Of a stretch of DNA of 64,000 nucleotides, positions 30,043 to 49,017 are shown piece after piece. The translations under genes and the position numbers were made by a program. The notes beneath the pieces were generated by a model. That model did not search any database. It was not told the origin of the DNA and worked only from the letters and a program-made list of their open reading frames with translations. The stretch comes from Hexactinellida sp. DTS-2022 (taxonomy: Eukaryota > Porifera > Hexactinellida), in the NCBI GenBank assembly GCA_028753945.1, contig JAPNXP010000008.1, forward strand, positions 3,162,001-3,226,000, given 5' to 3'. The first letter of the stretch is position 1. Every line of letters begins with the position of its first letter.

Positions 30043-31002
30043 CTACAATAGGATCTTCTGCTCGTTTGTATCTATCTGCCATTGTAGCCTATGATCGATG
30101 CAAAAATTATGCAGCACCATTGTAGCTACTACTAATCGACAAACTCTCTCCGGGGTGTAACAGAGAGTCCCTCCAGTTTTGTCCATAGATCGCCATCTAC
30201 TCTTCCAAACCCCAAAAGCGCATTCAATAGTTTTTCGAGATTTCAGAAAAGCTCTATTATAGCACCTCTCCCCTGGCGTGATTGGAGAAATTATTGGTGT
30301 AAGGAGGTTAGGCTTTAGTGGATACCCACTATCGCCGAGGAACCATCCTTTGACAGTGGGTATATCTCCACTAGCAATCCTTCGATTGATACCAGACTGC
30401 CTCCAAATAAAGGCATCATGAGTGCACCCAGGCCATTTGGCGACAATATCAATAAATTTTAAATCGGTATCGCATATTGCTTGGACATTGATGGAGTGAA
30501 AGTTTTTCCTGTTGACAAATAGATCTTCGTTACAGGGAGGTGCTAAAATAGGTACATGTGTGCCGTCAATACATCCGAGTACAAGTGGAAAGCCATTTAA
30601 TTCCAAGAATTTTTGCTGTATTCGTAATTAATCTATTTGATTTGGGAAAACTATATAATCTCGGGCAAAAAACATAGTGCATCTGTCACTGTACGGATAC
30701 ATCGGGAAACAGAAGGCTGGGATATCCCATGTGAAGTTGCGACAACCGTTTGAAATGAACCGGTGGCGAGAAATTGTAATGTGACAGCTAATTTGTGTGG
30801 GAGCTGGAATGGAATGTGATCGAATAGTTGATCGATGAAGGAACGTTACAACTTTTTCTTGCAGCTGAACGAACATATATTTAGTAACTCTGTAACGCGC
30901 GATAAATTCTATATCATTATAAACATCAATTGGGTTGAGTCTATCACGAAATACTCTCTGTCGTGACAAACTTTGTGAAAGATCGAGATCAAGTAGAAAA
31001 GC
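30043..31002 (-). pseudogene. Harbinger (HARBI1-like) DDE transposase, broken
   Basis: The downstream frame (30606-30043) gives LGCIDGTHVPI, NRKNFHSINVQAICD, WPGCTHDAFIWRQS, FLGDSGYP and RKTIECAFGVWKSRW, that is, the DDE_4 endonuclease with Asp (CIDGTH), Asp (LGDSGY) and Glu (IECAFG) all visible. Upstream, a second frame (to about 31002) gives the N-terminal region FRDRLNPIDVYNDIEFIARYRV. Between them (30607-30700) the reading frame is lost. The C-terminal catalytic half is well preserved, so decay is moderate. Confidence 0.7.
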
Positions 31003-42139: not shown

Positions 42140-42480
42140 TGCTATTGTGACGAGTATCACCTAGAGCCTTCAGGAGTAGTGTCCTTGGGAAAGGCACTAG
42201 GTGGAAGTACGGGACACTACATGACTAGTCTGTAGATAGTCCGGCAGTACGACTGGTAACCATAGTCTAGGACTATGGATACATGGGAAGTACGGCACTC
42301 GCAGGAGCCACGGGCTGGAGCGAGAGGTGCGGCAGTACGCATGGTGGTCGAGGGTTACCCTCCTGATGAGTCCCTGGAATGGGACGAAACCACACACATA
42401 ATATCCCTATGGGATGGGGTCAGCTAGAGCGTCTAGTCTTCATACTAGTACGTGGCCTCATCTCATAACACTATAATCAA
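42140..42480 (+). repeat. Ribozyme-bearing dispersed repeat, copy A
   Basis: GC-richer than its surroundings. It holds two partly similar segments with CGGCAGTACG (42243 and 42330), the second leading into the hammerhead, and a tail CATAATATCCCTATG to CTCATCTCATAA (42398-42468) shared with copy B. It interrupts the Mutator-type transposase relic. No open frame, poly(A) or tRNA-like region was seen. It could be a retrozyme-like or Penelope-derived non-autonomous element; this is inference. Confidence 0.55.
42344..42393 (+). ncRNA. Hammerhead ribozyme, complete
   Basis: All conserved parts are present. Stem III pairs GTGGT (42344-42348) with ACCAC (42389-42393). The cleavage site is GTC, cutting after C42349. 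Stem I is a closed hairpin of GAGGG (42350-42354), loop TTA, CCCTC (42358-42362). Then CTGATGA (42363-42369), stem II GTCCC (42370-42374), loop TGGAAT, GGGAC (42381-42385), and GAAA (42386-42389). With both helices I and II closed it is a type III arrangement. It belongs to a repeat unit that continues to about 42480 and shares its tail (CATAATATCCCTATG) with the copy at 56170. It has inserted into the dead Mutator gene. Self-cleavage is inferred. Confidence 0.8.
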
Positions 42481-43183
42481 ATCAGCTTGTGCTTCGACAA
42501 AGCTAGAGGTTGAGAAGGGCAAGGGCAAATTCATAGCCGAATTGTAGAGCACAAGTTTTTTATGCCCAATCCCAATGAGGCGGCCTCCCAATATGGAACT
42601 ATAAACCAGCGCGTTTCTTTTTGCGATATGTTTGTCGCCGATTGGTATTTTTTCTTGGAATTTTCCACTGACAGTCCAGTAACTGTTTCGAACTTTGCAA
42701 TGGTTGCATGCCATATGACAATATAGAATGCGCACCCGCTTTGAAATCTTTCTCGACTATTTTTATATTTCCCCGTTGACAGACACTGCACATTGTCATA
42801 TCGTTGAAGATTTTCTGGAAGACTGCAATGTTTATGATGAAATTTTCATTTCCTAATTGAGATTCTCGAAGTTCATGGAGCCCGACATATTTTTCATATA
42901 TTAAAAATGTCAATCCGCATGCGGACTAAGAGAATCCGCATGCGGACTAAGAGAATCCGCATGCGGACTAAGTAAATCCGCATGCGGACTAAGTAAATCC
43001 GCATGCGGAATTTAGTATAAATTTGCATCACAGGCGGACAAGTCATCACATGTGCAAAAGTCATTGCATGCGGAAGAGAATTCGTCGGCCGTAGGTGACA
43101 CCCAACTCTGATTCATATTTGAACATAAATATATGACTATGCTACTCATAATTCAGAACTTATATTTTTCTCTAAATTATAAC

Positions 43184-45066
43184 ATGCTCCGTATAAATAA
43201 ATCTAATGGTCGTGAAACTTTGATCAAGACGTGCGATAATTTTCATAAGCGAACAGGAGAAGTCGTGGGGATAGTGACAACATGGAAAGGAACCCTTACT
43301 GTTCTAGGACCCGAACAGTTTCGAAATCTTATTTCTGCTCAGAAAGATGAAATTTGGTGTAGCCTTTCTCCAAGGTCAGTAGGTTGTACTAATGAACCAT
43401 CATATACAATGCAGCAAACACAAGATTTATTGGGAAAAGATGTTAGTACTTACACAACTCAGATGCTACGAAGAATAGTGTCTTCAATTGTCAAAGAAGC
43501 AGTTGGTATGTTAGCTCGTTTGATATATAATTTCCAATTAGAGTATTTATTTTTAGTATACTTAATAGGCCGTCATAAGAGGTTTTGGGAAGTTGAAGAA
43601 CTAAAACCAGTTTGGTGGCCAAAATATATCCCCTTTGTATGCGTTTCGAAATCCACTAAATATAGAATAACTAAAAAGCAGCTTATTGAAATCGTGGTAT
43701 CATATAAACGAACAAATAATATGATTAAGACGAATGAAGCCGAATCCTCAACAGATACACATTTTTCTACGAGCACCCCGATCAAAAGGCAATCATTGCT
43801 AGAAAGCTCTACCTACTTGTCACCTCCTAAAAGATCCTTAGAAATTAGCATAGATGACGATTCGTATTTCAATGGACTGCTAGACCAGTCCTCTCATAGT
43901 CATTCAATTCAGCAAATTCTACCGCCACTGAACTATATACTACCTTCTTTAAACAAAGTATCACCTAGTATGAAGAAAGTATGTTTAACAGAACTTTCAA
44001 CCCAATGCCAATTGACAGATACTTCTATTTATGTGTTTTGTGTACGTAAGGATAACAAATTCATTAATTTCTAAATTTGTTATTAACAGCTAATTTTCTT
44101 TAGAATATCTTGAAGAATTGTTTTCCATTACTTAATGGGTTACAAGACACTCTCTTTTCCCAGGTAAATATTCAGTTTCTAAGTATCCTTCAAACTTTCA
44201 GTAACTTGTTTATTAGAATAGATACTTATTACATAACAGTTGACCTTCCCTAATCGGAACCTCGCTATTTCGTCTCCTCGATAATCGGAAAAGTAGTCGG
44301 TTGTCCATCTGCACCCTAGTAAATATATACTTTCGACTATACGTGTATTAAAATTAGAGAGTTCGATATATTATCATTATATGAGTTGGTCTAATAGCAA
44401 GGAGCTTCGAGTGTAACTTGACTTGTTAGTAGGTGAACCCTATCGTATTTTATTCTTCTATTTTAGAACCTTAGTTTTAAGAAGATGCCACGTGACGAGT
44501 TGAGCGTACAAATTCATCATAGCAAGAAAAATCATTGGGTGTGTTCCAGTTCCGATAGCGTTAACGGAGTACGTTTGTATGACTCGATGTTTCAAGGAAT
44601 TACAGCAACTGATATCGATACCCAGCTTGCACTATTGTATGCCGACAAATCTATGCAGCTTGAAGTTCAAGTTCCAAAGATACAACAACAACTAGGTTGG
44701 ACAGATTGCGGTCTCTTTGCTGCTGCAGTTGTTACTGCATTAGCAACTGGAAGTGATCCAGTGTACCTCACGTGGACCCAGGCTAATATGAGAGAACATA
44801 TGCGCAAATGCATCGAAAGAGAAGTAATCACTCCCTTTCCTAGTATTACTAGAGGAAAACGCACGGGCAAGGTCGCCATTCCTCAAAGGTATACAATTGA
44901 GTGTATTTGTGACTGCAATCTGCCTGAATTTGCTTACGCAGAAGATGGAAATGAGTACAGTATTCAGTGCGACACCTGCAACTTTTGGTTTCACAACCAT
45001 TGCTATAATCTCCCGAACACTTCAATTTCGGATTGTTTTCAGTGCAATAATTGTAGAAGAATATAG
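43184..45066 (+). CDS. Ulp1-like (C48) cysteine protease with C-terminal PHD finger, KDZ transposon gene
   Basis: Exons 43184-43505, 43569-44041, 44104-44163 and 44467-45066 join with consistent phases and GT/AG borders into 484 codons plus stop. The 63-nt first intron is a multiple of three, so it also reads through. The protein starts with MLRINKSNG (an upstream in-frame ATG at 43133 exists), has a mid-region WWPKYIPF motif typical of transposon-borne proteins of this kind, then a Ulp1-type protease core: His in KKNHWVCSSSD, Asp in RLYDSM and Cys in LGWTDCGLFAAA. It ends with a PHD-type finger (CICDCNLPEF to CFQCNNCRRI). Ulp1-like proteases accompany KDZ transposases in several eukaryotes; they are presumed to act on SUMO-like or other modifier conjugates. 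It converges on the transposase gene, with only 54 bp between stops. Confidence 0.8.
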
Positions 45067-45120
45067 TAATACTTCATTTTTGTAGACAGCTAGACATACA
45101 TGTATGTAGACATAATTTAC

Positions 45121-47939
45121 TCAATTATTAATACCTTTGTTCCAACATGCTAAGAAATAACGGGAGTTTAAAAACACATTTTCAATCCTCATATATGCCA
45201 CTTGAGTCGCAATACGTCTAAGTAATGAGAAAATTTGCTCACATGTTTGTGAATTAATTACTCTCATATCATCAGTGTTCCAGGTGTTCATAGAATATAT
45301 TGGATTGCATTGGTGATTCTTAGAATGAAATCTGTCTATTAAGAAAGTTGTGTTGCGGAAAAGAAATGGGTCCCTAAATTAGAGAATAGAGTTAATTTCT
45401 AGCTAATTAAACCACTCAAATATCTAACAATAATAATAATTAGAAAATACTGGATGAAGAACATACCTCATTATACATGTTGAATGCAAATTGCAAGCGT
45501 TGTCATATATAATTACTTCCGGCATCGTTTTGAACTTTTTTAACAACATATTGAAAATGAGGACGGTTGACTCCCTTAATTTCATAACTTCAAAGCCATA
45601 ACATTTTCTATGCTGACAAGCCATCATAAGCAATCCAGGGGAAAATCTCTGATGCTTAGGATAAAGTTTCTTGCAATTTTTCTGATTTTCAACGTGTTGA
45701 TCTTGGAGATACTGAGGAATTCTAGAATGAAGCAATCAATATACACTGTTAAATCGGAGGATATTACATAATTAAGTAATATAATTAAAATAGATTGATA
45801 AAACTTACTTGAAATTGTTGTTTAATGCTGGATAACAGTTGAAGTGGTCTTTAACATCACACACATTCACTTCACACACTTTTCGGGTTGGTTTTCGAAT
45901 TAAGACTTGTATTTGTTTAAGAATACTCATTAAAACTTCAGCAACATTTTCGTTTAATGTGATTTTATCATTCGGAATATCAATGTCTGGGGGTAACGAA
46001 TTTATAAGCAGTTCAAGAAATTTTGTTTTGGGATACATAGATTGTAAGTCAGATAACTTCCCAGTCTTATGTTGCGATAATTCGGCTAGTAGTTTGCGCT
46101 GTACCACTGAAATTGCAGAAATCCGAACAATAGCAAAGATTGATTCACATCGAGAGAACACTTGGATTACTTCTTGGACAAGTGGAAAACTTCGGTGAAC
46201 TTTTTTTATAACACCATGTTGTTCAGAACAATATACAATATATTTCGCGAATTCAGGTTTCACGGATTCTAGAGCATTTGCAAAATCTAAACTACTTAAC
46301 CCTGACTCAATAAATCTTAGTAATAATTTTCGAGTTTTCACATCAGCAACATATACTCGCTCTGCTATCGGAATAAGCGGATATTGTTGAGATTCATCAA
46401 TATTATCGTCTTTTGGAGGCAAGAGTTTTGTTGTCCCCATCGCTATGCCATCCAGAATGATTATTGAAGGAGATTCCTTGCATTTAATGCAACAAAAATT
46501 GTTTGCATAATCAATATCTACTAATCGTAGATAAGATTTCCAGGCGTGCTGCATGATGTGATATTTGTATTGGTGTGGATTACCCGTTCTAGTTAGTTTG
46601 TCATTCTTTGCCCTACAATAGAGATATTCGTATAAAATATGGAATATCCTGGGCCGTGTGATTATAGAATTGAACTTACTTCAGATAACTAAATAGGGGG
46701 TTCCTGGAATGAGTCATTAATTCACTATATTCATACAGCAAAGCATAATGGATGAAATATTTGTTATTTAAGTTCAGAAGTAAGAACTCTTTTCCTTGAT
46801 ATCCACATTTGCATTTACACGGTCCAATACAATATGAACTGTACACTAAACAAAGGAATATACAAAAAAATCAGAGATAATTGTTGTTGTTACAATAATG
46901 AGATAAGTACCTTTGCATTGAGCCAGCTCGCGCACATCATTTTCTAAATAAAGGACGATTCCAATATTTTCTAACTTAAGATTTAATATTGAATACTGAT
47001 ATCCATTCTCACATATAGTAACTTCTGGAATCAGGTTATGAGGTAAATTCATTCCATTTACCGCTTGCTCAGTATATATTTGTGATTGGATTGAATCAAA
47101 TGAAAAAGGAATTGGGCTTGAAGATATCGTGGATTCAAATGTGTTTTTAGGTACTGAAATACATTCCAAATCCTCTTGATGTAATGTTAGTATCTTTTCT
47201 AGTGTTTTTTTCAGATTGCATAGCTTAGTGCAAGTGTCACAAAACCATTTTCCTGCTAGAAATTTCATTATATGGAAACTTTCTTTGTTCTGCAATACAA
47301 TAGTACTTGTGTTCAGTATATAATACTTTGTTTCTGTAATTGTAGAAGATACCACAGTGCAAAACACGTTACAATGATTCCGAAAACATAACTCATAGGC
47401 TTGAAAGTGGGTACATGTTACTGAAGAACATTCCAAGCAAATTAATTTGTTACTATTGATGATTACCATGGAATTCTTCAGAGTAACTCTACCTAAAAAC
47501 AAACATAATTTATATGATGAATTTAATAAGGACAGTTTGAAGCAAATAAGTTATTTTGTCACTAACCTTCATTAATTTTATAGTCGGGCATTATGTAGAT
47601 ATTCGCTTCTTCTAAATACCATAACTGTGATTTTTTTAATAATTGATGGCAATATTGGTGAACAAAAGACATTCCAAGTTCGACCACTGCTTCTTCGTTG
47701 TAATTTAAATTAGAATCTGGAAATAAAATAGTTCCGCAAGGGTCCATCGTTTGATGAACTGAAGGAAATCCATGTTCGAACACTGCTTCTTCATTGTATT
47801 CTAAGTTAGAACCTGGTATTAGAGTAATTTCTAGTGTGTCTGTTGATTCGCATATTGATGTCACTTCACAATACAATTCATTCCATCTCCGTTTCTTGGA
47901 AGGAATTAACTGTAGCTCTCTGTTACTGTTTTCCGCCAT
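45121..47939 (-). CDS. KDZ (Kyakuja-Dileera-Zisupton) type transposase, apparently intact
   Basis: Six exons on the minus strand, 47939-47567, 47492-46911, 46845-46680, 46612-45809, 45721-45467 and 45373-45121, splice with matching phases into exactly 811 codons including the stop (810 residues). All borders are AG/GT. The features agree with KDZ transposases: a cysteine-rich segment (CIGPCKCKCGYQG), FCCIKCKESPSIIILDG, then SPGLLMMACQH with a following EST motif, VIIYDNACNLH, LIDRFHSKNHQC and NSQTCEQ. The DG, YDNAC and NSQ..EQ blocks probably contain the catalytic acidic residues. The start ATG at 47939 is followed by an acidic N-terminal region with two EYNEEAV/NYNEEAV repeats. No frameshift or stop was seen, so the copy may be active or very young. 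Confidence 0.8.
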
Positions 47940-48129
47940 AATATTTCTAAAAAATGTCAATAACAGGTATAAATTATTGTACTCCGCCAATGATGCATAC
48001 ATATACGAATAATTCCGCATGCGGATTTACTTATTCCGCATGCGGATTTACTTATACCGCATGCGGATTCACTTATTCCGCATGCGGATTCACTTATTCC
48101 GCATGCGGATTGACATTTTTAATAGCTCA

Positions 48130-49017
48130 TATTTTTTGCATCTTTACCACAACTCAATCTTTTAAATAATGCGAGTGTCATCTATTGCGATGCTACTTTC
48201 AAAGTTCGACAACCATTTTGTCAACTGTTCAGTTTACATTCTTTTCTGGCTGATGATAATGGTTACAAAGTCAAGCAGGTTCCTCTTGCCTTTATCATGA
48301 TGTCACGTCGCCGCAAACGAGACTATAAGGCCATCTTCCAGCATATTAAGGAAATAATACCAAGCATAAACCTATTCAGGCTCATCACTGATTTTGAAGC
48401 AGCCATCTGGAACGGAGCAAGAGAAGCTTTCTCAAACATTATCATTAGTGGGTGTAATTTCCATTGGGGACAAGCTCTATGGAGAAAAGTTCAGGAACTG
48501 GGACTTGCAGTTTCATATCGTACAGTAGGATCCGTTAATGAATATATTAAATTACTATTTGCCCTACCCTTTATTCCTGAAGAACATATTCTACCTTCCT
48601 TCATTGAAATCGCAGCATGTGCATTGTGCAACGCCTGACATTCAACCTCTGATTGAATACATGGATCGTACATGGATGACTGGTGCAATGTGGTCTCCTG
48701 CGGATTGGTGCGTTTTCAAAAGAGCTATCCGCACTAATAACGACGTTGAGGGATGGTACAATAGATTAAATACAAGGGCCCAGCAGTGCAATATTTCTTT
48801 TTATATACTTATATCTTTGCTTCATTCAGAAGTTGTTCTCATACCTATCCAGCAAAAACTGGTCCACGAAGACAAACTCATAAAATATCAGAAAAAGGAA
48901 ACACTAACATTCCAAGGGAAGTTATTACAACTGTGGCGCGATTATAGGAAAGTTAACATAACAACAAGTCAGCTATTGAAAAGCGTATCGCAAATAACAG
49001 CCCCAGCAACAAGTTAA
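48130..49017 (+). pseudogene. MULE transposase fragment
   Basis: Plus-strand remains of a Mutator-like (MULE domain) transposase. The first frame gives QPFCQLFSLHSFLADDNG and MMSRRRKRDYKAIFQHI, followed by LITDFEAAIWNGA and GCNFHWGQALWRKVQELGL, the usual MULE spacing of the second catalytic Asp (ITDFE) and the GC.FH.. block. Near 48600 the frame shifts, and the C-terminal part continues as DRTWMTGAMWSPADW and NDVEGWYNRLNTRA up to a stop at 49017. The N-terminal part is missing at the KDZ transposon boundary. No terminal repeats of its own were found. Confidence 0.65.

Follow-up and report, generated by a model that had tools for sequence, protein, structure and literature searches.

A KDZ-type transposon of a glass sponge with a second gene for an NRF1-like protein and arrays of NRF1-site-like palindromes at its ends

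In Harbinger and En/Spm transposons, a second element-encoded protein (a Myb-like protein and TnpA, respectively) binds terminal or subterminal motifs. The element described here lies in a 64,000-nucleotide stretch of the genome of the glass sponge Hexactinellida sp. DTS-2022 (the window, C17:3162001-3226000). It resembles those two systems in having a transposase and a separate DNA-binding protein, but it belongs to another superfamily and its predicted DNA-binding domain is of the NRF1 type. With the Kyakuja-Dileera-Zisupton (KDZ) transposons it shares a KDZ transposase domain, terminal inverted repeats (TIRs) and an 8 bp target-site duplication. The duplication is likewise 8 bp in Zisupton and in fungal KDZ1, according to passages in PMC12730594 and PMC12810828. 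An earlier note on this DNA held that intact KDZ elements are seldom described outside fungi and a few animals. This overstated their rarity, as passages in PMC12730594, PMC12477816 and PMC12810828 mention KDZ in fungi, fish (in a cited title), Chlamydomonas and Ectocarpus. The differences from described KDZ transposons are the second gene, with its NRF1 module, C48-like protease and PHD finger, and the TIRs, which are made of palindrome arrays; the passages on KDZ that were consulted mention none of these. The element would be placed with KDZ as a variant, and the link to NRF1 is the part that would surprise a specialist.

From the observed structure, past mobility, gene content and homologies of the element, and from the family-specific palindrome arrays at its ends, we propose that it is an autonomous two-protein KDZ transposon. 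An NRF1-like dimer would bind the terminal arrays, which could serve to assemble the ends of the element, to activate its promoters, or to do both, and we give this reading a probability of about 0.78. The transposase (gene 1) would cut and join the element ends. The gene 2 protein would dimerise via its NRF1-type dimerisation domain and bind the terminal palindromes via its NRF1-type DNA-binding domain, marking and pairing the ends for the transposase. When bound to the arrays it may also switch on transcription of both genes. Each family's protein would recognise its own ends, because the NRF1-like domain and the palindrome both vary between families.

The assembly searched comprises 112.4 Mb in 18 contigs. 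The element spans positions 42895-48128 of the window (5234 bp), with the outer ends set by comparing copies. The inverted-repeat arms at 42899-43012 and 48011-48124 are 114 nt long and 94% complementary, and the outermost 4 bases are unequal at the two ends (CATA and GAGC). Between the inverted repeats are two convergent genes, which splice in silico into 810 and 484 residues. The features of the ends are as follows.

42887..42894, no strand: target-site duplication, left copy (ATATTTTT), from copy comparison; a single copy is present at the paralogous empty site L070
48129..48136, no strand: target-site duplication, right copy (ATATTTTT), from copy comparison
42895..43012, plus strand: left TIR, begins CATATATTAAAAATGTCAATCC, from repeat search and copy boundaries
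48011..48128, minus strand: right TIR, finishes GGATTGACATTTTTAATAGCTC, from repeat search and copy boundaries
42914..43009, no strand: left array, five TCCGCATGCGGA palindromes with a 21-nt period
48014..48109, no strand: right array, five palindromes with a 21-nt period, one of them with one mismatch

Both arrays are supported by a count of TCCGCATGCGGA sites: when up to one mismatch is allowed, the window has ten (nine of them exact), where 0.03 are expected. NRF1 binds GCGCATGCGC as a dimer, with the half-site TGCGC, as described in sections of PMC10810270. The two palindromes have CGCATGCG in common. The half-site in the window, TGCGG, has the same first four bases as that of NRF1, and the fifth is changed. 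With nine of ten palindromes perfect, the transposase itself might read them (or they might act as cruciforms), while the NRF1-like module binds elsewhere, for example at host promoters; a CxC4-like cysteine region in the transposase (22.4 bits, under the cut-off of 26.9) could bind DNA. We consider this decidedly unlikely, as it explains neither the specific resemblance of the palindrome to the NRF1 site nor the presence of exact GCGCATGCGC arrays beside an NRF1-like module elsewhere in the genome (see below).

The gene 2 model runs on the plus strand from an ATG at 43184 to a stop at 45066 and predicts 484 aa in silico. Its introns are at 43506-43568, 44042-44103 and 44164-44466. Of the splice-site combinations tried, 18 keep the frame open, and this one is preferred because other families, inspected by eye, have the same exon edges.

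43184..43505, plus strand: gene 2 exon 1, NRF1-type dimerisation domain and a helix with the Arg (residue 96) aligned to human R206; from splicing and family profile
43569..44041, plus strand: gene 2 exon 2, WWP part of the NRF1-type DNA-binding domain; from splicing, Pfam and structure-sequence match
44104..44163, plus strand: gene 2 exon 3; from in silico splicing
44467..45066, plus strand: gene 2 exon 4, Ulp1-like (C48) protease core, C-terminal PHD finger and stop; from splicing and family alignment profiles

Judged by sequence homology, the first ~158 residues of gene 2 are an NRF1-type module with a dimerisation and a DNA-binding domain, which the earlier note overlooked. The Pfam NRF1 DNA-binding family (PF10491) matches residues 83-145 at 26.3 bits (curated cut-off 23.5), and the single protein matches the human NRF1 structures 8k3d (E 3.2e-6) and 8k4l (E 8.7e-6). 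A six-family profile of the N-terminal region, in which the five other families are 33-58% identical to that of the window, matches human NRF1 8k4l at E 6.9e-14 over chain residues 62-220. This match covers both domains, with the limits given in parts of PMC10810270. The residue aligned to human R206 is Arg in 6/6 element modules. Compared with NRF1/P3A2/Erect wing, as far as portrayed in portions of PMC10810270, the likeness is in the dimerisation and DNA-binding region, in Arg206 and in the GCATGC-centred palindromic site. Unlike these proteins, the module is here fused to a protease and a PHD finger in a transposon, the window protein has N242 and R244 replaced, the outer bases of the site differ, and an intron lies inside the DNA-binding domain. 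The intron is at the same position in other element families (inspected by eye).

The human contacts, as set out in excerpts of PMC10810270, are R206 to the central TG, R244 to the following bases and N242 to the outer G:C pair. In the window the kept centre of the site thus accompanies the kept Arg, and the altered outer base accompanies the altered N242. This correspondence is suggestive and not a proof.

Dozens of related loci in the genome have this pair of genes. Beyond the host gene L031, a genome search found 22 NRF1-domain matches at E up to 0.01. Searching with the NRF1-like module of another family gave 163 matches, and searching with the transposase gave 130. At 32 of 40 transposase cores taken from these 130 matches, an NRF1-like exon 1 lies within 8 kb in convergent orientation, where ~1% is expected for each. 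A protease-PHD exon adjoins 16/16 KDZ matches, six of which are copies of the window's family, and 18/22 element NRF1 loci. Of the 22 transposon-linked NRF1 loci, 14 have an upstream array of at least 2 palindromes, and in 12 of these the palindromes are centred on CATG or CTAG. Because one family accounts for several of the loci, the counts are not independent. No such array was found in the controls (0/22 downstream flanks, 0/2200 shuffled sequences). The two upstream arrays that lack such a centre, at L043 and L045, may be unrelated.

The palindrome differs by family: it is TTCGCATGCGAA in F4 and F8, GGCGCTAGCGCC in F10 and F11, TGTGCATGCACA in F12, TGAGCATGCTCA in L047 and TTCCGCATGCGGAT in a decayed relative, F3. 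Arrays are located at both ends in F1, F3, F8 and F12, by their inverted order, and in F10 and F11, by position. Pairs of GCATGC spaced 20-23 nt apart number 771 genome-wide vs 7 for the reversed pattern. In C1:1-7.03 Mb, for which all arrays are listed, an array lies 84-410 nt upstream of five of the seven NRF1-like exon 1 matches taken (0.14% expected for each). In three of these five (C1:1957149, C1:1927550 and C1:4764887) the repeated unit is GCGCATGCGC, from which a few of the units deviate. Related elements at C1:1951006-1957220 and C1:1927550-1933962 have end arrays based on GCGCATGCGC, and the positions of the NRF1-like exons in both were determined. The inverted array pairs that occupy C1:3940844-3942091 and C1:6911275-6912483 may be non-autonomous members of this system. 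A search of viral contigs found no relatives of the NRF1 module.

A single strong match to an ordinary NRF1 gene is present in the genome (L031, C1:12370499-12371152, E 3.0e-50), and the sequence GCGCATGCGC occurs unchanged in some of the element arrays. The arrays might thus be bait for the host's NRF1 to get the element expressed, the element's own NRF1-like protein being incidental. We regard this as very improbable. The arrays vary between families (TTCGCATGCGAA, GGCGCTAGCGCC, TGTGCATGCACA), although only the one strong host NRF1 was found. In addition, the site in the window alters the base pair read by N242; sections of PMC10810270 report that A or T at this pair weakens human NRF1 binding, and the window's own change is not among the changes seen there.

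The position of the arrays bears on a further alternative. The left array ends at 43009 and the gene 2 ATG is at 43184; the right array starts at 48014 and the transposase ATG is at 47939. Each array is therefore just upstream of one convergent gene, so that the gene 2 protein may also drive transcription of both. The NRF1-like protein could even do no more than activate its own element's transcription, using the arrays as promoter elements and without being involved when the ends are cut and paired, and NRF1 is a promoter-bound activator in the description available from PMC10810270. This seems unlikely to us. The terminal repeats themselves are filled by the arrays, and the two inverted array pairs on C1 mentioned above, ~1.2 kb apart (C1:3940844/3942020 and C1:6911275/6912456), resemble non-autonomous elements that retain both arrays.

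Several results weigh against recognition of the ends by the NRF1-like protein. Two of the three human base-contacting residues are replaced in the window protein, with Cys at N242 and Ser at R244; N242 is retained in 1/6 modules and R244 in 0/6. R244 is replaced although the bases that it reads are kept in the window site. The contact residues of F1 and F10/F11 are almost identical and their palindromes differ, and no simple residue-to-base code was found among the families compared. L043 and L047 have most of the DNA-binding exon in common, yet the upstream palindrome of L043 differs. The upstream match in L045 is not the array of its family, which lies further out. No array was found at 8/22 loci, for three of which exon 1 lies at the border of the sequence retrieved. 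The genome-wide excess of GCTAGC pairs is modest (90 vs 27 in the control), and many of them are an unrelated repeat. As to the promoters, the left end of the window copy and L042 are the only places where a TATA-like word was seen immediately inside the array, and a shared promoter layout is not established.

The earlier note had read gene 2 as a Ulp1-like protease with a PHD finger. This holds for the C-terminal part at the level of the family, and it missed the N-terminal NRF1 module. Pfam C48 has no match in the window's own gene 2 protein even at E 1, whereas Peptidase_C48 matches 9/10 members of the family alignment (E up to 1, best 1.1e-5) and the family alignment profile matches Ulp1-like 6dg4 at E 2.4e-5. 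H54, D70, Q106 and C112 are invariant in the family alignment, A2, and by comparison with Ulp1 are the presumed catalytic residues. The PHD finger is of the C4HC3 type, with C179, C181, C199, C202, H207, C210, C224 and C227 invariant in the same alignment. It is matched in 10/10 family-alignment members, the window protein scoring 20.9, below the gathering score of 24, and its best relatives in a profile search are PHF2 and PHF8. Going by the domain names only, the SUMO-protease-like and PHD domains might act on SUMO-marked or methylated chromatin at the bound ends. The earlier note had suggested chromatin-directed integration or regulation through the PHD finger. NRF1-like recognition of the element's own ends appears better supported than such integration, because of the NRF1 module and the palindromes resembling the NRF1 site.

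Gene 1, the transposase, is predicted in silico from an ATG at 47939 to a stop at 45121 on the minus strand, with five introns and 810 aa. Only one other combination of the sites tried is also open.

47567..47939, minus strand: transposase exon 1, ATG at 47939; from in silico splicing
46911..47492, minus strand: transposase exon 2; from in silico splicing
46680..46845, minus strand: transposase exon 3, part of the CxC4-like match below the Pfam cut-off; from splicing and Pfam
45809..46612, minus strand: transposase exon 4; from in silico splicing
45467..45721, minus strand: transposase exon 5, KDZ catalytic match begins, YDNAC motif; from splicing, Pfam and relatives
45121..45373, minus strand: transposase exon 6, KDZ match ends, CEQ motif, stop; from splicing, Pfam and relatives

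Pfam KDZ (PF18758) matches residues 671-789 of the protein at 33.2 bits, above the cut-off of 26.6, which agrees with the KDZ membership first suggested. The YDNAC and CEQ motifs are retained in the five relatives printed for comparison, which include a further copy of the window's family. The description of the locus as an intact KDZ-type transposon with two intron-containing convergent genes is likewise borne out by the TIRs, the 8 bp duplication and the two open spliced frames. The full-length products of 810 and 484 residues are free of stops and shifts in silico, the splice sites being predictions. A chance open frame is ruled out by the agreement of homology, introns and copies.

The element is recently mobile, as seen from near-identical copies, 8 bp duplications in six of seven copies and a paralogous empty site. 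The genome search for further near-identical copies, which had been proposed as a check, found five that are near full length with 99-100% DNA identity, one that is interrupted (L007 with L009) and one that is partial (L008). The five near-full copies differ from the window copy by 4-59 substitutions in about 5.2 kb, which rules out a single old relic. They also differ by indels, some of them long and located in the end arrays. Where both ends can be read, the target-site duplication is 8 bp in 6/7 copies and 7 bp in 1/7. The paralogous empty site, L070 on C3, has a related flank without the element and one ATATTTTT. The copies are not all decayed: two of the six near-full copies, those of the window and of L003 on C13, have both genes open. 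The transposase is frame-shifted in L002, L005 and L006, and the second gene in L004. At L006 / L053 (C12:6026800-6033880), the end arrays are greatly expanded, with 48 CCGCATGCGG cores vs 10 in the window copy.

Other mobile-element sequences and a ribozyme are found in the window. A MULE transposase domain fragment at window 48126-48635 (plus strand) adjoins the right end, so the element lies inside or next to another transposon. Beyond the left end, a type III hammerhead ribozyme is located at window 42342-42395 (plus strand, 58.2 bits). A DDE nuclease fragment (DDE_Tnp_4, 3e-33) at window 30046-30627 (minus strand) is probably of the Harbinger type.

Animal NRF1 may have arisen from such an element by domestication, or the elements may have captured NRF1. 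L031 has an unbroken frame through the DNA-binding domain and keeps the equivalents of R206 and N242, with Lys at R244. An unrooted tree, in which the host branch is long, sets seven element modules apart from human and host NRF1 (100/100). With these limits, the grouping argues against the elements having recently captured the NRF1 of this host and does not show the direction. We tentatively suggest, as a possibility somewhat short of even, that the animal transcription factors of the NRF1/Erect wing family arose by domestication of an end-binding protein encoded by an ancient KDZ transposon, and that their promoter site GCGCATGCGC descended from that transposon's terminal palindromes. In favour of the transposon-to-gene direction are the many variants of module and site among elements vs the few NRF1-domain genes per species (0-3 for each of nine species in a table of PMC8122590). 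Present-day families in this genome still combine the protein with its site, which in some of them is exactly GCGCATGCGC. Against this direction, the tree has no outgroup and no element module groups with NRF1.

Among the matches listed in the open-access literature we did not find a transposon-encoded NRF1; subscription papers were outside this scope, and absence from print is not shown. The available passages of PMC10027918, on transposon-derived animal transcription factors, do not mention NRF1/EWG, KDZ or Zisupton. The Drosophila heterochromatin protein Ova has an NRF-1-like domain and is not in a transposon, according to excerpts of PMC6335052. Ova, as described there, is another non-NRF1 use of the module and can be compared with the element proteins. 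The DNA-binding mode of NRF1 was called novel in the part of PMC10810270 concerned, with no apparent evolutionary relationship to SRF, its nearest structural neighbour.

The element thus draws a link between an animal gene regulator, NRF1, and a transposon. NRF1 is vital to animals, and its module at dozens of transposon loci gives this protein family relatives and a possible origin. Several of the transposon NRF1-like loci adjoin matching palindromes. They form a natural series of domains with candidate targets, from which the rules of recognition could be derived.

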